Shown here one piece after another: positions 2,793 to 17,723 of a stretch of DNA of 21,423 nt. The notes beneath the pieces were generated by a model. It did not search any database, was not told where the DNA came from, and was given only the letters and a program-made list of their open reading frames with translations. Within the stretch, counting starts at the first letter, position 1. Each line of letters opens with the position of its first letter. Source of the DNA: a virus. The position numbers were made by a program, and so were the translations under genes. The stretch spans positions 1 through 21,423 of the IMG/VR virus record IMGVR_UViG_3300042540_001487, one strand, 5' to 3'.

Positions 2793-3140
2793 ATGGCAAG
2801 AGTCCTGTCCGACAATTCGGCAACTAAAAAGACGATGCTCGAGAACCTCGAAAAGGCTCTCGGCGTCGTTACTGTTGCTGCTCATAACACAGGCATCCAC
2901 CGGGACACGCATTACAACTGGATGCAAACCGACGAGGAGTATAAAGCCAAGGTCTCCTCTCTTAAGGAGGTCACCATCGACTTTGCAGAGGCCCAACTGC
3001 ACAAATTAATCAAAGAGGGTAACGTCGCCGCGACAATCTTTTTCCTAAAAACCCAAGGCAAGAACCGAGGTTATATAGAGCGGCAGGAAATCACCGGTAC
3101 AGATGGAGCTCCGATCATTGAGATTATCGGGAACATCTAA
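2793..3140 (+). CDS. TerS-like helix-turn-helix protein (putative terminase small subunit)
   Basis: This 115-aa protein has a helix-turn-helix-like stretch at about residues 25-50, where AAHNTGIHRDTHYNWM is followed by DEEYKAKV. It then has a C-terminal helical segment with EGNVAATIFFLKTQGKNRGY. That arrangement (AAxxxGIxRxTxYxW, then EGNxxAxxFxLKxxG) is typical of small terminase subunits and related phage DNA-binding proteins, which recognise the packaging site and feed DNA to the large subunit. The large subunit is not next to it: the following gene starts 22 bases on and is a tail gene, and no ATPase/nuclease gene occurs in the window. A transcription regulator using the same fold is the alternative. 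Confidence 0.6.
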   Translation: MARVLSDNSATKKTMLENLEKALGVVTVAAHNTGIHRDTHYNWMQTDEEYKAKVSSLKEVTIDFAEAQLHKLIKEGNVAATIFFLKTQGKNRGYIERQEITGTDGAPIIEIIGNI

Positions 3141-3929: not shown

Positions 3930-6267
3930 TAACATCAGTTACAACGTCGTCGTCGAGCGCTTCAAGGTGTTTGCAGACGGCCACTTCCTTATCAAACGAT
4001 TCACTCACGGGCAGGTTGACCAGACCGACCTCGATAAGGACCAGCTCTTTCCCTGGATGCACGTAGCACCGGTGGAGGTTCGCGCAGCGGCAGGAGCTCG
4101 CGTGTTCACCTTTGATGTGATCTTTGCGGACATACCAAGGGACAAAGAAGACAAGACCGACTATCAGAAGGAATCAATTAGCGACTGCATCCGGTTGGCC
4201 GAGGACTTGCTTAGCGAGATCCAGAACGGCCAGACAGTCTTCGGCGATCTTGTGGAGGTGGATGGCGAGAGCAGCATCACTCCTTTTATTGAGGAGTGGA
4301 CTCACACCCTAAGCGGGTGCACTTTGGCTTTAACTATATCTGTTCCAAACAACTACTCCGCGTGTGATATACCTGCGGACTGGGCGATTGGTGGTGGTGG
4401 TTCTGGCACACCGCCTTCTCCTTTACCATCCCTTGTGCTTCGGGTCAATAACGTCGACAACACGGTGCAGAACGTCCTCGACCTTGTCAACGGCACGAAC
4501 ATCACTATCGAAGACCTCGGAGACGGCAGGGTCCGTATCAATTCGTCAGGAGGTGGCGGTGGGTCAGTAGCATGGGGAGCCATCACGGGCACCCTATCGA
4601 GTCAAGTCGACCTCCAGAATGCTCTCAACTTGAAAGCTGACATCTTAAGTCTGGGAGCGGTAGCCTTCTCAAACGACTATGATGACCTCGACAACAAGCC
4701 AACGATACCGGACGCGACTACTTTTGTCCCTTATACTGGAGCCACTGCAAGCGTAGATCTGGGCGTGCATTCCTTAAAGGCTAACGATGGCACAACTAAC
4801 ACGGAGGTGAATGCTAGTTTCTTTGGAGTGCAGAACGCAGCAAGCACGAAGTACTCTGTCCTAACCGAGTCAGGCATTACTGTCACCGACGTCGCAGCGA
4901 GTAACGTGATGAACTTGAACGCTGGAGGTCTGACCTTCCCTGACACGACAACTCAGTACACGGCAGCTGTGAACGCGGACTGGAACGCAACAAGCGGACT
5001 AGCTGAGATACTTAATAAACCCACGATTCCAGCAGCGCAAATACAATCAGATTGGACACAAACCAATAACGCAGCGCTCGACTTTATCAAGAACAAACCG
5101 ACGTTACCCGGCACGATAGGCGACATGCTCAAGAGCGTCTATGACACCGACAACGACGGCATCGTAGATTTTGCTGAAGCACTCAAGACCGAGGTACGCA
5201 ACTCAACCGGAGCGACCTTGCACAAAGGTCACATCGTTCGTTTGAGTGGCAGCACAGGAAACCTTCCAAATGCAGTCTACGCTCAAGCCAATAACGACGC
5301 AAACAGTGCTCAGACCTTTGGAGTTGTATACCAAGACATCTCAAACAACAGTGATGGTTTTGTTATAACGCTGGGACAGATTAATACGCTCGACACCCGG
5401 AGCACTGCACCAAATGCCTTCACATCGGACACGCTGATTGATGGCGATGTTATTTACCTCTCGGCTACTACACCCGGTCACATTACCAATATCAAACCAA
5501 GCGCACCTCAACATATCGTTTACGTGGGCATGGTGGTACGGACATCACCGACAAACGGTACAATCCAGTATCGGATCCAGAACGGTTACGAGCTTGACGA
5601 AATCCACAACGTGGTTGCTTTGTCGCCAGTCAATAATGATTATTTATATTATGATGGGTCGACTTCGCTTTATCGTTTGCGTCAACTCACCGCTTCACTG
5701 ATAACCGATTCGACGACGGTGGGTCAGAGCCTTATGAAGCTCACCAACCCATCAGCGATTCGATACCTGCGAGTCAATGCCGACAATACCGTGACGGCTA
5801 TCTCGGCGGCTACGCTTAAGAGCGAACTTGGCTTGTTACGTGGTGTGCAAGCAACAACCCTTACGAACAGCAACACAATCGCGAGCACGAATATCACGGG
5901 CTGCATACTTGCACTTGATGCAAATAGTACTTATATAGGTAGAATGGTTGTATCAACAGGATATCCTAGCACTAATGGTTTTCCATTTTGGTTTACATTC
6001 CCAGCAGGGGCAACAATGAACGTTGGGCAACTATCGAGTACTACAGTTTCGGGTCAATTTATGCAATGGCAAGCAGTAACAAGCGGAACGGCATTAACCA
6101 ACCGTTTGAATCAGGCTAATACACAAATCGGTTTAGCTACTATTGAGATATTTATCAGTACTGGCGCGACTAGTGGTAATTTGACACCTGTGTTCAGTAC
6201 ATTCTCAAACGGAACAACAGCAACCGTGTACGGTAACGCAACATTCATTCAACTTGAAAAAATATAA
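3922..6267 (+). CDS. Tail fibre / receptor-binding protein with N-terminal tail-attachment domain
   Basis: A 781-aa modular protein. Residues 1-150 are a globular domain (WMHVAPVEV, FDVIFADIPRDK, a cysteine near the end) resembling small tail proteins and probably anchoring to the tail tip. Two glycine linkers follow (GGGGSG 157-162, GGGGG 210-214). Fibre-type segments come next: ITGTLSSQVDLQNALNLKA, then NKPT[IL]P repeated at 258, 365 and 391, and FVPYTGATASVDLG. Residues about 429-560 match the recurrent fibre module GATLHKGHIVRLSG...GFVITLGQI, and later comes a TNPSAIRYLRVNADNTV stretch. The last 125 residues form a separate tip domain that probably contacts the receptor. No cleavage or chaperone domain was recognised. 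The fibre call is strong; the domain borders are approximate. Confidence 0.85.
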   Translation: MFNNISYNVVVERFKVFADGHFLIKRFTHGQVDQTDLDKDQLFPWMHVAPVEVRAAAGARVFTFDVIFADIPRDKEDKTDYQKESISDCIRLAEDLLSEIQNGQTVFGDLVEVDGESSITPFIEEWTHTLSGCTLALTISVPNNYSACDIPADWAIGGGGSGTPPSPLPSLVLRVNNVDNTVQNVLDLVNGTNITIEDLGDGRVRINSSGGGGGSVAWGAITGTLSSQVDLQNALNLKADILSLGAVAFSNDYDDLDNKPTIPDATTFVPYTGATASVDLGVHSLKANDGTTNTEVNASFFGVQNAASTKYSVLTESGITVTDVAASNVMNLNAGGLTFPDTTTQYTAAVNADWNATSGLAEILNKPTIPAAQIQSDWTQTNNAALDFIKNKPTLPGTIGDMLKSVYDTDNDGIVDFAEALKTEVRNSTGATLHKGHIVRLSGSTGNLPNAVYAQANNDANSAQTFGVVYQDISNNSDGFVITLGQINTLDTRSTAPNAFTSDTLIDGDVIYLSATTPGHITNIKPSAPQHIVYVGMVVRTSPTNGTIQYRIQNGYELDEIHNVVALSPVNNDYLYYDGSTSLYRLRQLTASLITDSTTVGQSLMKLTNPSAIRYLRVNADNTVTAISAATLKSELGLLRGVQATTLTNSNTIASTNITGCILALDANSTYIGRMVVSTGYPSTNGFPFWFTFPAGATMNVGQLSSTTVSGQFMQWQAVTSGTALTNRLNQANTQIGLATIEIFISTGATSGNLTPVFSTFSNGTTATVYGNATFIQLEKI

Positions 6268-8470: not shown

Positions 8471-11400
8471 ACGCAGAGGTAGAATTAATAGTTAAGACCG
8501 GTGTTGCCCAATGGTACACCAGCGGACTTACCGGAATCAATACAACGCTTCAGAAGATATATTTGGACGCGACTGCGGCTCCTTGGCTCGGCGTTGATTT
8601 ATATCAGCAACTCATCGACGAGAATCTGGACGTGCAGGTCTATGACTCAGGAAACAATCTACTCCAGACCGTTACAATCAGCGCGGGAAGTATATTTGAA
8701 ACCAGCGGGACACTTTCGTACTTAAGCCTCACTCCGGAAGCGATAGCCACTGGAACATATTTCATGTTTGTTATTGGTCAAGACTCCTCAACTGTGCTTG
8801 AGCTTTATCTTAATGAGACCATCTCTCAGAACTGGCGGTTCTCGGATCTTCAGACCTTTGATGCGCTCGGATCATTCTCAAGGCAGTTTAGAATCCCGGC
8901 AACAAATAATAACTGCAAAGCCATCGGATATCTTAACGACGTGAATTTCAATGGCGACATTGATTATTTGCAAACGAAACTACCTGCCGAAATCAGGGTG
9001 CAGACTCTTCCTATCGCTGCTGGTTATATTCGGGTCATGAGTGTTATAACTCAGGCAGCCAAGCTCGCAGACTTTGAGGTTACCTTTTATGCCGAGAGCC
9101 CAGACCTGTTCACCAAGGTGGCAGGAAAGAAGCTTAAAGATATTGAAGCTCTGCAAAGTTTAAATGTGCCTCTTGATTATAATGAAGTAGTCGGAGCCAG
9201 CGGTTACCCATACCTATATTCACTCAGTGACTATGGCCAGAAGTGGGACCAGACTGGTACGGTTGGATCACGCAGTATTTATACCACATCAATATTTGGA
9301 GCACCCCGAGCTGGCGACTTGACCCCGTCACTGAACTGGCAGTGGATATTTCAACAGATAATGAGTGAGGCTGGTTTCACGTATACCGGAACCATTCTGG
9401 ATAATGCTCTGTTTAAATACTACGCTCCTTGGCTCAACGCAAAGAACATTAAATATGTCGATAGCGTCCAGAGTTATGCTTTCAAGATATACAATAATGC
9501 GCCCATCTCGATGGCGGTTAACACTCAATACTCTTGGGCATCGACAGCTGAGACCTTTGACAATGGATCCACTGTGGTTGGTAATACCTTCACGGCTCCA
9601 ATAACAGGTGTTTACACTTTTCGTTATTGGTATACTTTCACAAGTCCATCTCAACCGACCGGGATTAACTTCAGGTTCTTTTTCCAAAATGTAACCACTG
9701 GCGCTTTGGTGCAAATCAATGAGACGGTGATTGTTGCGGGGACAAATAACTGGGACTCAACTAATCAAGCTCCACCTTTTTTCCTTTCAGCTGGAGATCA
9801 ATTTCGTGTTGTATACATAGCGGTCAGCGCTGGTGTCGTTCTCAAGGATGGAGTCAGTTACACTACCGGAACAGGTCTGGAGCTTATCGATATTGACTTC
9901 ATGGACGGAGCGACCATCGATTGGGCAGGAAACGCACCGGATGTAACTCAAAGTGATTTTTTGAGGGACGTTTTAAATATGCACTGCTGTGTTATTGTAC
10001 CGGACCGCATCGAGCCTAACAAATTAATCATTTCACCAATTTCAGATTATGTAGAAACTGGTGCTGATCGTGACTGGAGTAAAAAACTGGATGTCTCCAA
10101 AGACATCGTTTTGACCAACACCAGTGATTATCAAAACAAAAGATTGACCTTTACCTATAGTGAAGGCGAAGATTACTTTTCTGGGATTTACAAAAAACTG
10201 GGTCGCATCTACGGTGATTACAAAATTGAAAACTACACAGTCAGCGAGACAGATGTTCCAAATGACTTTGCAAGTGATAGCGAACAGAAAATTGAACTGG
10301 TGACTCAATCAACGCCCAGCAATTATATTAAAGGCACCAGTGTTGTCATACCCAAGTTTGTGGATGAGGAGGGTAACTTTATCAGTCCTAAACTGCGGTG
10401 CTTGTTTCATGCGGGTGATTTCCAGATGACTTTATTTGATTTCAGTACAAGCCTTCCAGACACAAGTTATGTTGTACCGGTGCTAAATCACTATGAGTTG
10501 ATTCAACCATTGTTTACTTCGCTTGATTTGAACTGGGCTCCTGAGGTGCCTCTTTATATTCAAGGTATTAATCCGGTGAACAACCTCTTCAACGTCTACT
10601 GGAGGGAGTATCTCAATCAGCTCTACTCCCCTAACGCTCGTATCATGGAGGCTTACTTCGCTCTTGATTTAACCGACATCCTTAACTTCACTTTTGCTGA
10701 TCGCATCTGGGTAGTTAATGCTTGGTGGAGAATTCTGGAAATCAGTGACTATAAGATTGGCAGTGGTGAAGTCACAAAGGTCGTGCTCTTAAAACTAATC
10801 GATGCGGTTCCAGAAACTACAGCAATACCGGATGGAGCTGATGCTGGAGGTGTCATCGAGTTTGTTGACGGAGCTGGAGATCCAGTATCTGGAACACAGG
10901 ACGCATGCGAGCGTTACGGTTACACTTGGGATCCTGTGACTCAGTCCTGTTACGCCTTCACCTCGCAACCTCAAAACACCAGCTCCGCTGTAACCAGCAA
11001 AGCTACAGGTCGAAGTACAAACGAGGTGAAGAACGCATCGAACACGATTGTCATGACCGACAAGCTCGACAATGATACGACCAATGTCTACACGCTGGCT
11101 GTGGGTACCGACATCACGCTTGCGGCTGACAATACCTCAAGCTTTGCGGTTGGTGAAAAATTAACTCAGGACGGCAGTGGTGGTGTGGCTATGTTAGGCA
11201 AGAACGTCTACACTGAGAACTCAGGAATACATATGGGCGGTGGCTATCGTGACGGCGATTCTACTAATAATGAATCAGGCTGGGCACAGAGCGGGACTAT
11301 TATATTACACCGTCGTCACACTTTCACGGCACATGCTGAAACTACTGAGCTCTTTATCAATGGTATCTCAGGAGCTCGCATATCAATACCAGATGAGTCA

Positions 11401-11862: not shown

Positions 11863-14364
11863 ATGTCAAAAAAATATATAATAGAACTTGAAACCAAAGC
11901 GGATGGTACCATTGGCACTCTGAATGATGTAGCCAAGGGTCTCGAATCGGTGGCAAATGCTGAAAAGAAGGTCGCAGATAATACCGAGGACGTCACGGTT
12001 CAGCTCGCCAAGTTACGCGAGCAGTTACAGAACACAGATGTCAAGAGCGACCAGTATAAGGAGCTCACTGAGCAATATAAAAAGCTCGGTGGTAGTCTTG
12101 ACGACCTTATACCTAAGACAACAAACCTAAAGCAAGAGCAGCGAGAACTTCGAAAAGCACTGCAAGCAGGACAAGAAGCGCTCGGGACCGAGAAGTATAC
12201 ACAGCTTACGCGGCGACTCGGAGAGGTCAATGATCAGTTGAAGGACATCGCGGAGAGTGCGGGTCAAAACGCAGGACCGCCTTTAGAGAACCTTCAACGC
12301 ATCAGCGGTGGACTTGCAGATAGATTGTCAACACTTGATTTTGAAGGACTCAATCAAGACATTCTGAATATTGCCGGAAACGTCAAGAGCTTCTCGTTTA
12401 AAGGGATTATTGATGGAGTCAAAGGTCTTGGCACTGCCTTCTCTGCTTTAGGAAAAGCTCTTCTTGCCAATCCTATATTCGCTATCGCTGCGGCAATTGC
12501 GGCCATTGGTGTAGCTATTGCAGCTTTTCTTTCGAGTCAGCAGGAAGCTATAGAGAAACAGAATGAAGCCATTGATAAAAACACAGAGCGCCGTAAAAAT
12601 AACGAGCGTCTGGCTTTTGCTCAAGCAGAAGGTAACACTAAAAAATTAACCGAGCTCAGGCTACAATCAAATAAAAAAGATCTTGATGACACTCAGGCTA
12701 AAATTAATAACATACTTGGATATCAGAAGCGTTATGGGTACCTGACTGAGCAGCAGGAAAAAGATCTTGCTGACCTTCGTGATAAATACCGTCAACAAGA
12801 AATTGACCGGGAGCTCATTAAAATTGAAGCTATCAATGCACTGAATGCTCGCCGGATAACTTTACAGGAGGAGTTTGAACTTCGCAATCTTGATGATCGC
12901 CAACAGTCAGAGGCATTGTTAACTCGCGAGTATGTTAAGCAAGAAGAGGAGCTCCGGAAACTTGGTGGTACTGCGGAGGACTTCGATAAGCTCGGTGAAG
13001 TATTCGCCACAAAAATAAAGAAGCTTCGTGATGGTTTTGCCGATGCAGACAGGTCGGCATCAAGGTCAGCTGCTGAAAGCGCAAAGAGTAAACGCGAGGC
13101 AATCAAAGCTGAACAGGACGCAGTAAATGAAGCGATCAAGTCAGCACAGATTGAACTCGAAGCGAGCACAAAAAGCGCCCAGCAACGAGAGCTCGATGCG
13201 GTCGCTGCTAAATACACAGCACTCACGGATCAAGCAAAGAAAGCAAAGGTGGACACGGCCCAGATCGTCGAGCTACAAGCAAAGGAGGAGCAGGCTATTC
13301 GTGACCGCTATACCAAAGAAGAGCAGGCAGCGGCTGACACAATTAACAAGGAGCGCCTAGCTACAGCGCAAAGCATAGCTGAACAAGCACGGAAATCAGT
13401 GGCCGATCAAAAAGGGCTCGAGCTTGCTGAATTACTGAAAAAGTATGTGGAGGAGAAGGCTCTGCTTAAACAACAAGGAATCGATACAACTGCACTGACA
13501 GAACAGTACGAAAAGCAGCGAAAAGAGGTTGTTGATAAATATGCAGCCGAGGCAGCTAATAAAGAGAAGGATCGACAAGAAGCTGTACTCCAAGCACAGA
13601 CTGCCGGGTTGAGTGCAAGACAACAGGCACTTGCATTTGAGCTGGCGAGCCTTAAGGCTGACTATGAAGCGCGCATTGCACTGGCTAAAAAGTACGGAGA
13701 GGATGTGACTGCTTTGGAAGAGGAGTACACTGATAAGCAAAAGCAAGCTCGGATTAAAGCAGCTTTAGATACTGTGACTGCATGGGCAGACGCAGCAGCA
13801 AATGCTATCGATGCATTGACTTCTTTAAACGAGGCAAAGAGCGTTGAACTTGCTGGCAAGCTGAGTGATCTTGACAAGGAAATTGAAAATGCTCGAACCG
13901 TCCAGCAAAGGAATGATTTAATTAAACGAAGAGCTGTCATTGAAGCTGAACAGCGTCGAGCGTTTGAAAAGAACAAAAAATTACAAATTGCAGCTGCAAT
14001 TGTAAACACAGCGGCAGCAGCTGTCACTGCATTTGGATCACAGTTAATTGTGGGCGACCCGACCAGCTTTATTCGAGGTGGTATTGCCGCAGCAGCCGCA
14101 GCCGCAGCCGGAGCTTTGCAAATTGCCAAAATAAAGAACACGCAGTTTGAAGCCAGCACTCCTCCATCGAGCACTAATATACCTGAGCCAAGCTCTGGTT
14201 CTTCTGGAAATACAGAGGCAACTACTCCTGCCTTTAATCCATTAGCACTGGACTTTTTAAAGAACCGACCGGATCAGGAAATGCCTCGTGCTTATGTGCT
14301 TGCTGGTGATGTTCAGAAATCTACTGAGGCTCGTGAAAGAGTTGAGGAGCTTGCCCGACTTTAA
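11863..14364 (+). CDS. Tail tape measure protein
   Basis: An 833-aa protein that is mostly long charged alpha-helix and coiled coil, the hallmark of tape measures, which set tail length and are ejected during DNA entry. The N-terminus (KYIIELETKADGTIG) and following helices lead to a hydrophobic segment at about 190-223 (LLANPIFAIAAAIAAIG), then coiled coil from about 225 to 640. A second alanine-rich hydrophobic region lies at about 705-758, partly encoded by tandem GCAGCC repeats near 14088-14110. The last 70 residues are Pro/Ser-rich. By the rule of thumb of about 0.15 nm per residue the tail would be near 125 nm. No lysozyme or peptidase domain was recognised. Confidence 0.9.
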   Translation: MSKKYIIELETKADGTIGTLNDVAKGLESVANAEKKVADNTEDVTVQLAKLREQLQNTDVKSDQYKELTEQYKKLGGSLDDLIPKTTNLKQEQRELRKALQAGQEALGTEKYTQLTRRLGEVNDQLKDIAESAGQNAGPPLENLQRISGGLADRLSTLDFEGLNQDILNIAGNVKSFSFKGIIDGVKGLGTAFSALGKALLANPIFAIAAAIAAIGVAIAAFLSSQQEAIEKQNEAIDKNTERRKNNERLAFAQAEGNTKKLTELRLQSNKKDLDDTQAKINNILGYQKRYGYLTEQQEKDLADLRDKYRQQEIDRELIKIEAINALNARRITLQEEFELRNLDDRQQSEALLTREYVKQEEELRKLGGTAEDFDKLGEVFATKIKKLRDGFADADRSASRSAAESAKSKREAIKAEQDAVNEAIKSAQIELEASTKSAQQRELDAVAAKYTALTDQAKKAKVDTAQIVELQAKEEQAIRDRYTKEEQAAADTINKERLATAQSIAEQARKSVADQKGLELAELLKKYVEEKALLKQQGIDTTALTEQYEKQRKEVVDKYAAEAANKEKDRQEAVLQAQTAGLSARQQALAFELASLKADYEARIALAKKYGEDVTALEEEYTDKQKQARIKAALDTVTAWADAAANAIDALTSLNEAKSVELAGKLSDLDKEIENARTVQQRNDLIKRRAVIEAEQRRAFEKNKKLQIAAAIVNTAAAAVTAFGSQLIVGDPTSFIRGGIAAAAAAAAGALQIAKIKNTQFEASTPPSSTNIPEPSSGSSGNTEATTPAFNPLALDFLKNRPDQEMPRAYVLAGDVQKSTEARERVEELARL

Positions 14365-14394
14365 ATAAAAGAGCCGCTCACGTTTGAACGGCTC
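14363..14394 (-). terminator. Leftward rho-independent terminator
   Basis: Read on the minus strand, 14394-14371 forms a 10-bp stem (GAGCCGTTCA with TGAGCGGCTC, one G-U pair) closed by the loop AACG, followed at once by TTTTATTT (14370-14363). On the plus strand the same stem has a C-A mismatch and no T tract, so the signal points left. It lies at the end of the tape measure gene, 649 bases beyond the stop of the leftward gene ending at 15043, and is the only leftward terminator candidate I noticed for that gene. Confidence 0.7.
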
Positions 14395-14470
14395 CCTCCA
14401 TACCCTAAATGACTATCTTGCACTAGTCTTATAGTCGAGACTAATATATTACAAATAATAAAAAATAGAC
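14395..14470. promoter_or_regulatory. Intergenic region with repeated GACTA/TAGTC sites before the head operon
   Basis: This short gap holds four copies of one pentamer in alternating orientation: GACTA 14411-14415, TAGTC 14424-14428, TAGTC 14432-14436 and GACTA 14439-14443, plus the palindrome ACTAGT at 14422-14427. Two six-base pairings are possible (14411-14416 with 14431-14436, or 14424-14429 with 14438-14443). An AT-rich stretch then runs to the protease start at 14471. This looks like an operator or promoter region for the head genes. I found no good match to the Bacteroidota promoter consensus here, so the exact role is unresolved. Confidence 0.4.
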
Positions 14471-15049
14471 ATGCAAAAGAAAAAAGTTATGAAGTGCGTC
14501 ATTGACGACAACATGAAGCTCGGGGTGCAGGCGATAAGTTTAGTAGAGTTTCCAGCCATAGAGACCAATTGGGTAGCATTAAATGAGGTGAAGCTCTCAG
14601 CGGTAAGCGAGGACCGCCGGATGCTTTATGGCCCAGCACTAATACCTGAAAAGTACATCTTACGCATTGATCAACAGACAGGCGAAGAATACTACATCTA
14701 CTTTGATAAAGACACAGTCTACAAGTGCGCTCACCAGTTCATGCTAAAAAACCTGCACCATAATCACACGCTGGAGCATGAGCATAAAGTTAATGGTTGC
14801 ACTGTCGTGGAGACATGGTTAAAAGAAGATGAAAACGACAAGAGCACACATCTTGGCATTGATGTCCCGGTAGGCACTTGGCTTGTTGGGAGCTATGTAC
14901 AAAACGACGACCTTTGGGAAGAGGTAAAACTCGGCAAGGTTAAAGGCTTCAGCATTGAAGGTATCTTTGACCACATGGTTGCAGAGCTCAGCAGTTCAAC
15001 TGAGGACTTGTTTGTGAAGGCATTGATGAATGCTTTGAATGATCAGTAA
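14471..15049 (+). CDS. Phage prohead protease, XkdF-like (Peptidase_S78_2 type)
   Basis: A 192-aa protein with FPAIETNWVALNEVKL early, GPALIPEKYILR (54-65), YYIYFDKDTV, then LEHEH (101-105), VVETW (112-116), VPVGTW (132-137) and GKVKGFSIEG (155-164). This order is that of the XkdF-like phage serine protease family, in which a His in the central motif and the Ser in the GFSxEG motif are the likely catalytic residues; both are present. It would mature the capsid by trimming scaffold and shell proteins. It is the first gene of the head group. Its 3' end overlaps the convergent leftward gene by 7 bases, and the scaffold gene it should work with is 1.15 kb away. Confidence 0.85.
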   Translation: MQKKKVMKCVIDDNMKLGVQAISLVEFPAIETNWVALNEVKLSAVSEDRRMLYGPALIPEKYILRIDQQTGEEYYIYFDKDTVYKCAHQFMLKNLHHNHTLEHEHKVNGCTVVETWLKEDENDKSTHLGIDVPVGTWLVGSYVQNDDLWEEVKLGKVKGFSIEGIFDHMVAELSSSTEDLFVKALMNALNDQ

Positions 15050-16119
15050 TAAGACTCTTCACCTGTTTCCAAGTTGAGCCATTTGCCAATACTCTCATTC
15101 TTGCCGGTGGCCGGTAGAAACTCCATGTAGGCTAGCAGACCTGCTGTCTCTTGAAGGCTTGGATTATAGGTGAGAACTTTATCAACGCTGTCGTACTCGT
15201 TAACGCTTCCAGCTTGCACCGTGATGGTGCTGTCGCCTTGACTGTTGACTGCAACCTCAAGAGTCGACCCGTATACGTTGTCGCTAATCATAACAGAGCG
15301 CGGTCCATTGTAGAGTCGGTACATTTGAATGAAGCCAGAGTACTTTTGCCCAAAGCTATTAATCAAAGATTGGTATGGTGTGGTGCGCGTGTCTTTGCCA
15401 TTAATGTATACAGCACTCTTGGTCTTGCCATCAGCTTGACGATCGATATCCATTGCAATTGATGTGATGTGAGTGCTGGGGCTGACTTTCACAATATTAA
15501 AAGAAGTCCGGGTCTGGTAGATATACTGTTCAATAGTCATGTTGACGAGCTTCAAAAACTCAGCGCGACGGAGGCGACGCTTTGGAGTTATTGCAGCGCG
15601 TGATTGCCAAGAGATGCGAGGTTTGCCATCGGCTCCTTTCGTTATCACACGCGCAAAATATCCAACTCTGATGAGTGGGTCCTTCATATCTTCTGCTTTG
15701 CCTTGCACAGCTGTCTCGTATGGCTCCAGTTCAAAATCAACTACCGCTCCAGTGGCATTATGGGAGTAGGTCACCTTTGCCTCGCAATAATATACATTTT
15801 GTCCAGCCATACCACTCGGCGCTTCGTGTCTGATCCACTTGCTGGGATTCCGTAGTACATACCCTTGAGGGGTGTCACCGACTAGCGAGAACCCTCCGTT
15901 ATAAAGGAGCATGTTTGCATAGTTCAGAGGATACATCCCAAAAGCGCTCACTGAATCCGGCTGTAGTTCGGCGACATAGTAGATCTTCATCGGTCCACTG
16001 CTGAAATCGCTCACCTCATATACGCGGTAGTTGCGCTGAGTTCTGGTTTGTATTTGGCCTTCGAATTGGGCCATCTCTTCGGGAAGCCCGAGAAGCTGAA
16101 GTGCATTGATTGTGCTCAT
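15043..16119 (-). CDS. Leftward orphan gene inside the head operon, 358-aa protein of unknown function
   Basis: The only convincing minus-strand gene in the window. The product begins MSTINALQLLGLPEEMAQF and ends GKWLNLETGEESYY. It has no signal peptide, membrane segment or recognised catalytic motif. It looks soluble and mixed alpha/beta, with a basic stretch KRRLRRAEF in the middle and many aromatic residues. It has its own Bacteroidota-type promoter (16157-16187) and a 37-base leader, and it converges on the protease gene. An autonomous gene opposite to the surrounding late genes is the usual pattern of phage morons, which often act on the host (lysogenic conversion, exclusion of other phages). 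That role is inference; a head or decoration protein is also possible. Codon-like composition matches the neighbours, so it is not an obvious recent import. Confidence 0.8.
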   Translation of the reverse strand: MSTINALQLLGLPEEMAQFEGQIQTRTQRNYRVYEVSDFSSGPMKIYYVAELQPDSVSAFGMYPLNYANMLLYNGGFSLVGDTPQGYVLRNPSKWIRHEAPSGMAGQNVYYCEAKVTYSHNATGAVVDFELEPYETAVQGKAEDMKDPLIRVGYFARVITKGADGKPRISWQSRAAITPKRRLRRAEFLKLVNMTIEQYIYQTRTSFNIVKVSPSTHITSIAMDIDRQADGKTKSAVYINGKDTRTTPYQSLINSFGQKYSGFIQMYRLYNGPRSVMISDNVYGSTLEVAVNSQGDSTITVQAGSVNEYDSVDKVLTYNPSLQETAGLLAYMEFLPATGKNESIGKWLNLETGEESYY

Positions 16120-16156
16120 GGTACTAAAGTAGTCACTTTTTTGCTACGATATCGGG

Positions 16157-16187
16157 AAAAGTTATGCACACGAGTCAATAGTTCAAA
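16157..16187 (-). promoter_or_regulatory. Bacteroidota-type promoter for the leftward gene
   Basis: On the minus strand, TTTG (plus-strand 16187-16184) is followed after exactly 19 bases by TAACTTTT (16164-16157). The Bacteroidota primary sigma factor consensus is TTTG, 19-21 bases, TAnnTTTG, so this matches ten of the eleven bases expected if the last G is allowed to differ (TTTG, TA, TTT; final T instead of G). Transcription should start near 16150, leaving about 30 bases before the ATG at 16119. No comparable promoter was found on the plus strand in the same gap. Confidence 0.65.
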
Positions 16188-16198
16188 CATTCATAAAA

Positions 16199-16813
16199 AT
16201 GAAAGGAACAATCGCTCAAAAAGTACGCGACATCTTTCACCAGTTCAGCATCGATCCAAAGGACATCTTCCTCGAAGAGGAGGAGGTAGCTCTTGAGACC
16301 GAGGGCAAGCTAGCCGACGGTACTGTGATTTACACAAGTGCTGCCGAATGGACCAGTGGAGTTGACGTGTACACTAAAGATGAGAGTGGCACCGCTACGC
16401 CTTTGATGGCTGGCGAGTACGCTCTGGAAGACGGTCGCATGGTCATCATTGGCGAAGACTCTAAGATTACAGAAATCAAAGAAGTCGAAGTCGAAGAAGA
16501 GATGAGCTCGGCTGACTTGTTGCAAACTATCGAGAGCTTGAGCTCACGTGTTGCTGCGCTGGAAGGCCAGAACAACGAGTTGCTCAGCAGGCTCACGAAG
16601 TCTGAGGCTGATAACATCAGCAAGACTACTGAACTCAGCCGCGTTAAAACTGAACTCTCTGAGGTCAATTCAAGCGCAGCAGCTCCATCCGTAAAGGATA
16701 AGGCCGTGCAATTGGGCCGCGTTAAGCAGCCACAACCTGCAATCCCAACTAAACCTTTCGCTCGCATGTCGATGAAAGAGCGTATCGAATACAACCTTCA
16801 AAATTCAAAGTAA
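16199..16813 (+). CDS. Capsid scaffolding-like protein
   Basis: A 204-aa acidic protein lying directly before the major capsid gene. Residues 35-95 are a beta-rich domain (GKLADGTVIYTSAAEW, YALEDGRMVII), residues about 104-156 a coiled coil (LLQTIESLSSRVAALEGQN), and the end is a basic helix (MSMKERIEYNLQNSK, 190-204). Acidic N-terminus, coiled coil and a basic C-terminal helix just upstream of the capsid gene is the standard scaffold layout; the terminal helix usually binds the shell protein. I recall similar proteins in Bacteroidota phages with the LxDGTxIxTxAxEW pattern. The XkdF-like protease would digest it during maturation. The gene starts 80 bases from the divergent leftward gene. Confidence 0.7.
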   Translation: MKGTIAQKVRDIFHQFSIDPKDIFLEEEEVALETEGKLADGTVIYTSAAEWTSGVDVYTKDESGTATPLMAGEYALEDGRMVIIGEDSKITEIKEVEVEEEMSSADLLQTIESLSSRVAALEGQNNELLSRLTKSEADNISKTTELSRVKTELSEVNSSAAAPSVKDKAVQLGRVKQPQPAIPTKPFARMSMKERIEYNLQNSK

Positions 16814-16817
16814 AATC

Positions 16818-17723
16818 ATGGCAACTACTGTAAACAATTCAACTACGTATGCCGGTAAGTTCGCCGGTGAGTACATCAAGGCTGCGTTCTACGCCAACGA
16901 GACACTGCAACATGTGACCGTGAAGGAGAACATCGAATACAAACAAGTAGTGAAGCGCATTGCATCCAATGTGACCTTTGCTAATGCTACTTGTAACTTC
17001 ACTCCAACTGGTGAGATTAACCTGACTGAGCGCATTCTTGAACTGAAGAAACTACAATTTCAAGAAGAGGTTTGCAAGAACACTTTTCTTGATAGCTGGG
17101 AGGCTAAGGATGTTCAGAATGGTACTCTTGGTACTAATTTGACCGATGGCATCATCAGCGAAATGCTCGCAGGTATTGCTCAGAACAATGAGAACTTGAT
17201 ATGGACTGGCGATGGCACAAACGCTGGTGAGTATGATGGTTTGCTTTACTTGATTGGTCAAGATGCTGATAACGATATCAACTTCGTATCCACTCCAGTA
17301 GCTATCGACTCTACAAATGTTTTCGCTAAGATTCAAGCCTTGATTGCTAACGCTCCTCTTGGTTTGAAAAAGGCAAGCGAAAAACCTCTGATCTACATGG
17401 GTCAGGACGTGTGGGAGGCTTACATGTACGCAAATGCTGCGGCAGGTAACGGCTGGTACACCTACGCTGGACCTGAAGTTCAGAAAAGCTTCATGGGCTT
17501 GTATAATATTGTGGTTTGTCCGGGTCTCCCAGCATCTACAATGATTATGTCGCAGCCTTCGAACTTGTGGTTCGGTACTAACTTGACTTCTGAGTGGAAT
17601 AACATTCAGGTAGTTGACATGGGACAGTGGGCTGATGACAACGTACGCTTCTCAGCTAAATTCTTTGCTGGCACTCAGTACGGAGTCGGTTCAGATATCG
17701 TAGCCTACTCGACTTGGTTCTAA
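16818..17723 (+). CDS. Major capsid protein
   Basis: A 301-aa protein immediately after the scaffold. It begins MATTVNNSTTYAGKFAGEYI and has ETLQHVTVKENIEYKQVV near the start, LTERILELKKLQFQEEVC, then NENLIWTGDG, GKKASEKPL-like helices and a C-terminus ending YSTWF. Length, position between scaffold and tube gene, and the mid-protein pattern of an acidic helix followed by a WxGD loop fit the HK97-fold shell proteins of Bacteroidota phages. There is no long N-terminal delta domain, in line with a separate scaffold gene. Codons are more T-ending than in neighbouring genes, as expected of a very highly expressed gene. A strong hairpin follows the stop at once. Confidence 0.85.
   Translation: MATTVNNSTTYAGKFAGEYIKAAFYANETLQHVTVKENIEYKQVVKRIASNVTFANATCNFTPTGEINLTERILELKKLQFQEEVCKNTFLDSWEAKDVQNGTLGTNLTDGIISEMLAGIAQNNENLIWTGDGTNAGEYDGLLYLIGQDADNDINFVSTPVAIDSTNVFAKIQALIANAPLGLKKASEKPLIYMGQDVWEAYMYANAAAGNGWYTYAGPEVQKSFMGLYNIVVCPGLPASTMIMSQPSNLWFGTNLTSEWNNIQVVDMGQWADDNVRFSAKFFAGTQYGVGSDIVAYSTWF

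Follow-up and report, generated by a model that had tools for sequence, protein, structure and literature searches.

A reversed, optional and exchangeable gene at the protease/scaffold border of a phage head operon

The window analysed here, a linear virus record of 21,423 bp with a rightward late region, carries between its prohead protease and scaffold genes a gene that is read leftward and is called X hereafter. Comparison with related contigs showed that X is a genuine gene, a member of an undescribed all-beta protein family, and that it behaves as a cassette at a module border, optional and with alleles that are swapped. The reading that I favour as a whole, and regard as probable though well short of certain, is that of an optional, exchangeable cassette lodged where the protease gene meets the scaffold and capsid genes, served by shared leftward signals and encoding a late accessory virion protein. 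The initial annotation of this DNA had described a 358-codon leftward open reading frame between protease and scaffold, and the frame is indeed present with the neighbours that were named for it. The features of the locus are:

11863-14364, plus strand: 833-aa tape-measure-like gene upstream of the protease, so called from its position and coiled-coil make-up
14367-14398, minus strand: leftward terminator-like hairpin between the tape-measure-like gene and the protease
14471-15049, plus strand: prohead protease, Peptidase_S78_2 / XkdF-like (Pfam E 1e-16)
15043-16119, minus strand: gene X, ATG start, 358 aa, all-beta, undescribed family
16125-16188, unstranded: conserved element upstream of the scaffold gene, from an alignment of 11-13 relatives with and without X
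16199-16813, plus strand: scaffold-like coiled-coil protein, equivalent to the C-terminal part of the P12024L protease-scaffold fusion
16818-17723, plus strand: major capsid protein, with a weak Phage_capsid match, phrog_11320, and 30% identity to Nonlabens phage P12024L_02

The protease scored 61.6 bits against Peptidase_S78_2, above the Pfam cut-off of 24, and its stop overlaps that of X (15043-15049). The 833-aa gene, which matched no family in Pfam or PHROGs, ends 3 bp short of the leftward hairpin. Nonlabens phages P12024L and P12024S (Inhavirus) have homologous protease, scaffold and capsid proteins, but in P12024L protease and scaffold form one 349-aa gene (P12024L_01) with the capsid gene directly after it and no X. 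The window protease is 42% identical to the first half of P12024L_01 and the scaffold 27% identical to the second half, in agreement with phrog_24921, a single profile whose N-terminal part is matched by the window protease and whose C-terminal part is matched by the scaffold. Lone leftward frames are likewise annotated in the late region of P12024L (P12024L_04 and _07), and lone reversed frames are therefore not unique to the window; two small leftward ORFs, at 2750-2980 and 5123-5365 of JQ823123 (P12024L), each stand alone in its rightward head region. To judge from P12024L and from the promoter type described below, the host phylum is probably Bacteroidota. Near the left end of the window, positions 148-1326 encode a 392-aa protein that resembles ParB-like nuclease families in its N-terminal part and, along most of the chain, DNA methyltransferase families; a small-terminase-like gene (2793-3140) lies a few genes downstream of it.

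At least five other distinct phage contigs carry a relative of X in this position, likewise reversed, with 51-62% identity over the aligned part. The carriers encode proteins of 311 aa (L009 and L002), 355 aa (L010 and L011), 357 aa (L083 and L084) and 354 aa (L138), and partial copies are present in L015 and L139. Within the close pair L083/L139, dN was 0.039 and dS 0.93 (dN/dS ~0.04), and X is by this measure under purifying selection. The X gene of L009 (L009:5360-6295) has a clean in-frame deletion of 47 residues, corresponding exactly to residues 186-232 of the window protein. Downstream of it, on the minus strand of L009:5136-5360, follow a 74-aa DUF1508 (YegP-like) gene (E 5e-10) and then a terminator; the window has no such DUF1508 gene.

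X is absent from L003-L008, L012-L014 and L016, where the gap between protease and scaffold measures just 73-179 bp, and the capsids of these contigs are 74-90% identical to that of the window. It was also found nowhere else in the long contigs of L004, L012, L013 and L016 (G001, G006, G007 and G008; 26.8-34.8 kb), records that are possibly incomplete. With so many close relatives lacking it, X cannot be essential for assembly. On the capsid tree the presence of X is scattered and implies at least four changes on well-supported branches. X identity was 56-62% for all pairs of carriers compared, regardless of whether their capsids were 94% (L009-L011), 85% (window-L009) or 62% (window-L138) identical, and the third-position identity between L009 and L011, which was 0.61-0.66 in protease, scaffold, capsid and portal, fell to 0.47 in X. 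This flat identity across capsid divergence, together with the low third-position value, shows that X alleles have been exchanged independently of their neighbours. The comparison of relatives with and without the insertion, which had been suggested at the outset, thus bore out an insertion that is present or absent between protease and scaffold and whose alleles are exchanged. The protease/scaffold border itself recombines: between L003 and L016 the protease is 96%, the scaffold 63% and the capsid 73% identical. In L036-L082, whose capsids are ~50-55% identical, nearly all relatives have a conserved 58-aa forward ORF in the protease-scaffold gap. In 84,980 bacterial and archaeal genomes, two pattern scans found relatives of neither X nor the capsid, and so gave no sign of a prophage within the limited divergence that such scans cover; X and the forward homologue described next were likewise without relatives in a phage collection of 50,697 records.

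A cousin clade from IMG/VR (L018, L020, L024, L026, L027, L097-L109, L129, L133 and L135) has a homologue of X in the same protease-scaffold junction, but here it points forward and is coupled to the protease. In 20 contigs its start lies between -4 and +24 nt from the protease stop, with stop-start junctions such as TAATAATG, ATAAATG and similar. Full-length identity between the forward homologue and X is 19-24% (blastp 4e-17 for L011 vs L018), the forward homologues being at least 42% alike within their own clade, and the reverse and forward families form separate clades in which orientations are never mixed. The leftward gene at the cousins' junction is instead a large terminase (Terminase_6N, E 9e-7), situated between the forward homologue and the scaffold and capsid genes; in the window's clade the terminase is located elsewhere. 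Examples are L020:3741-5036 and L097:7763-9061, and TAAATTTG, TAACTTTG or TACTTTTG occurs a few bases at most ahead of the terminase start. The idea that a neighbour or the 431-aa ORFs gave rise to X by duplication was rejected: the cousins' 431-aa leftward ORF is the terminase and has no similarity to X. Stop-start coupling to the protease is what one would expect if the gene were expressed together with the head genes, and as far as gene order can tell it goes against a job for the family outside the lytic programme. The identity of ~20% between X and the forward homologue nevertheless leaves room for different functions.

Searches of Pfam, PHROGs, PADLOC and PDB with X and its homologues gave no match at E<0.05; the sole PHROG match of X, to an endolysin with an E of 0.08, was put down to chance. 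AlphaFold models of X (moderate, pLDDT 67) and of the forward homologue (confident, pLDDT 84.6, pTM 0.81) were both almost all beta. PDB structure matches of the two models all had E>0.01 and none identified a head protein; the weak matches were to fibronectin-III and Ig-like sandwiches, and those of the moderate-confidence X model were dismissed as meaningless. The only viral structure match was BFVD A0A6J5NXI2, an uncharacterised protein of an uncultured Caudovirales phage, which aligned with the X model almost from end to end (Foldseek E 1.8e-7, probability 1.00) at a TM-score of just 0.32-0.34, a low value that is probably due to the moderate confidence of the X model. Fold class, position and the protease coupling of the homologue suggest that X is probably an accessory head or virion-surface protein of the beta-sandwich type.

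The 79-bp gap between X and the scaffold gene contains, on the minus strand at 16187-16157, the sequence TTTG-N19-TAACTTTT. Flavobacteria and Bacteroides share the -7 consensus TAnnTTTG, and TTTG near -33 is a Bacteroidota sigma-A promoter element (PMC7366714; PMC9723704), although F. johnsoniae showed no such motif at -33 (PMC7366714). TAACTTTT agrees with TAnnTTTG at 7 of 8 positions, the final G being missing, and has TTTG 19 nt upstream; a sigma-70 scan is uninformative for promoters of this type. The two-box pattern TTTG-N18-21-TAnnTTTK occurred in 0.3% of shuffles of the 79-bp gap, and the whole window has four matches against 0.7 expected by chance. The three other minus-strand matches (9686-9715, 11869-11898 and 12641-12671) all lie within rightward tail-region genes. 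The boxes form part of a larger element, which on the plus strand reads AAAGTNGTCAC...TTGCTAC...GGGAAA-GTT...GAGTCAAT, spans ~62 bp and ends ~10 bases before the scaffold start codon. All clade members but L138 have kept it, whether or not they carry X (nhmmer E 1e-19 to 8e-11), and nhmmer found no convincing match to it elsewhere (next best E 0.54). A conserved RNA fold was looked for in the element and none was found, nor was there an Rfam match. TTTG-N19/20-TAnnTTT is present in the X-less contigs L003-L008, L012 and L013, while L015, L083 and L138, all of which carry X, lack the -7 TA; the promoter pattern therefore does not track X. The two-box sequence that had been taken for the promoter of X is thus real, but it is not X's own, being kept in relatives without the gene.

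The strongest competitor of the favoured reading is that the element is a purely rightward, phage-specific promoter or operator of scaffold and capsid, that its sigma-A likeness is incidental, and that X is transcribed from a weak start near its ATG or is hardly expressed. The near-fixed distance of the element to the scaffold ATG irrespective of X fits such a role, as does the frequent presence of a terminator before it, which would leave scaffold and capsid in need of a start there, and the three X carriers without the -7 TA also speak for it. On the plus strand, however, most members have no TAnnTTTG, a near match being confined to L007/L008 (TACATTTT), and X, being under purifying selection, must be expressed. 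I regard this explanation as unlikely, yet deserving serious attention.

The minus-strand hairpin at 14367-14398 has a 14-bp stem that includes G-U pairs and is followed by TTTTATTT, so that it shows the GC-rich stem and T tract of an intrinsic terminator; the rightward reading has mismatches and lacks a T tract. No other leftward terminator-like hairpin in the window is as strong. It lies past the whole protease gene, 645 nt from the X stop, so that the predicted leftward RNA would cover the protease gene from end to end in antisense. A hairpin with a leftward T tract occupies the same tape-measure/protease junction in the X-less contigs L003, L004, L006, L008, L012, L013, L014 and L016. The initial annotation was right that stem and T tract exist in the leftward reading only, but the terminator does not belong to X. 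A second hairpin, bidirectional and flanked by A and T tracts, comes immediately after the protease stop in the X carriers L009, L011, L083 and L138 and also in L003, L006, L007/L008 and L016, which have no X. In the carriers it sits between the convergent ends of protease and X (in L009, of protease and the small gene after X). It is absent from the window, and the long antisense 3' end predicted there would consequently be a local peculiarity of this genome.

There is a second competitor, in which an older leftward RNA, either antisense to the protease or short and ending just after the protease gene, tunes protease against scaffold and capsid, with X as a passenger. It is consistent with the minus-strand TTTG-N19/20-TAACTTT of the X-less contigs named above, with the leftward T tracts that both hairpins have in relatives lacking X, and with the tape-measure/protease hairpin of the window, L003/L006/L016 and L009, whose leftward G-U pairs are A.C mismatches in the rightward reading. 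Against it, the conserved block extends past the two boxes without a conserved fold or a match in Rfam, L014 and L016 have kept the hairpin while lacking the box pattern, and the hairpin of L014 favours the rightward reading. I consider this explanation decidedly unlikely.

Phage morons, known from lambdoid and other prophages, are extra single genes between conserved late genes that are variably present and flanked by promoter-like and terminator-like sequences. X had at first been likened to them, as a self-contained gene with its own promoter and terminator, transcribed by the host RNA polymerase at a time apart from the late genes, for instance in a lysogen. Several points of this likeness stand: promoter-like, coding and terminator-like features line up on the minus strand, X is an extra gene between conserved genes that close relatives lack and that is swapped between phages, and L009 adds a second leftward gene, the DUF1508 one, with a terminator. 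The claim of a self-contained unit failed, since the terminator lies past the whole protease gene and both promoter-like and terminator-like sequences exist where X does not; X brings no signals of its own, and both controls are older than, or independent of, the gene. The -7 TA is, moreover, missing in three carriers, no prophage relative emerged from the genome scans with their limited reach, and the homologue of X belongs to the late operon of the cousins. Late-gene regulation in relatives had been named beforehand as an observation that would speak against the moron reading, and the anatomy of the 20 cousin contigs points to it. A moron in this sense is accordingly slightly less probable still.

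More speculatively, and in my view quite improbably, the conserved divergent promoter might always make a leftward RNA across the protease gene that sets the ratio of protease to scaffold and capsid, and X might have been inverted to ride on this antisense transcript; if true, a late structural gene would have been turned into one made in opposition to the protease. Lastly, the occurrence of homologues in both orientations at the same junction could suggest two phases of one invertible segment flipped by a site-specific recombinase, but such a switch is largely refuted and very improbable, because the orientations belong to separate clades of 19-24% identity, never mixed within a clade, and no inverted repeats of at least 14 bp were found in 14300-16300.

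Returning to the favoured reading of an exchangeable cassette, the group would comprise uncultured siphophages, probably of Bacteroidota, in which the border may be permissive because transcription is already re-set there, with a terminator usually after the protease and a conserved control element before the scaffold. X was probably inverted in the window's clade. Read leftward, it would use the minus-strand face of the shared divergent element as its promoter where the -7 box is usable (the window, L009 and L011), and its RNA would end at leftward terminators that exist with or without X. The window has lost the terminator next to X, and there the transcript would continue in antisense across the protease gene as far as 14367-14398. 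The protein would be an accessory head or virion-surface component made with the late genes, as the stop-start coupling of the forward homologue to the protease suggests; promoter use, timing and virion role are here inferred.

That a promoter, a reading frame and a terminator are aligned in one genome is no proof that they form one unit, and relatives without the frame that keep both signals, as here, call for caution. The cassette behaviour of X is of a known kind, the protein family is new, and the reversed orientation relative to a late-operon homologue is unusual. The locus thus presents an undescribed all-beta family whose members are coupled to the protease in the cousin clade but reversed and optional in that of the window, and the head operon of these uncultured phages tolerates cassettes of either orientation at a single module border.
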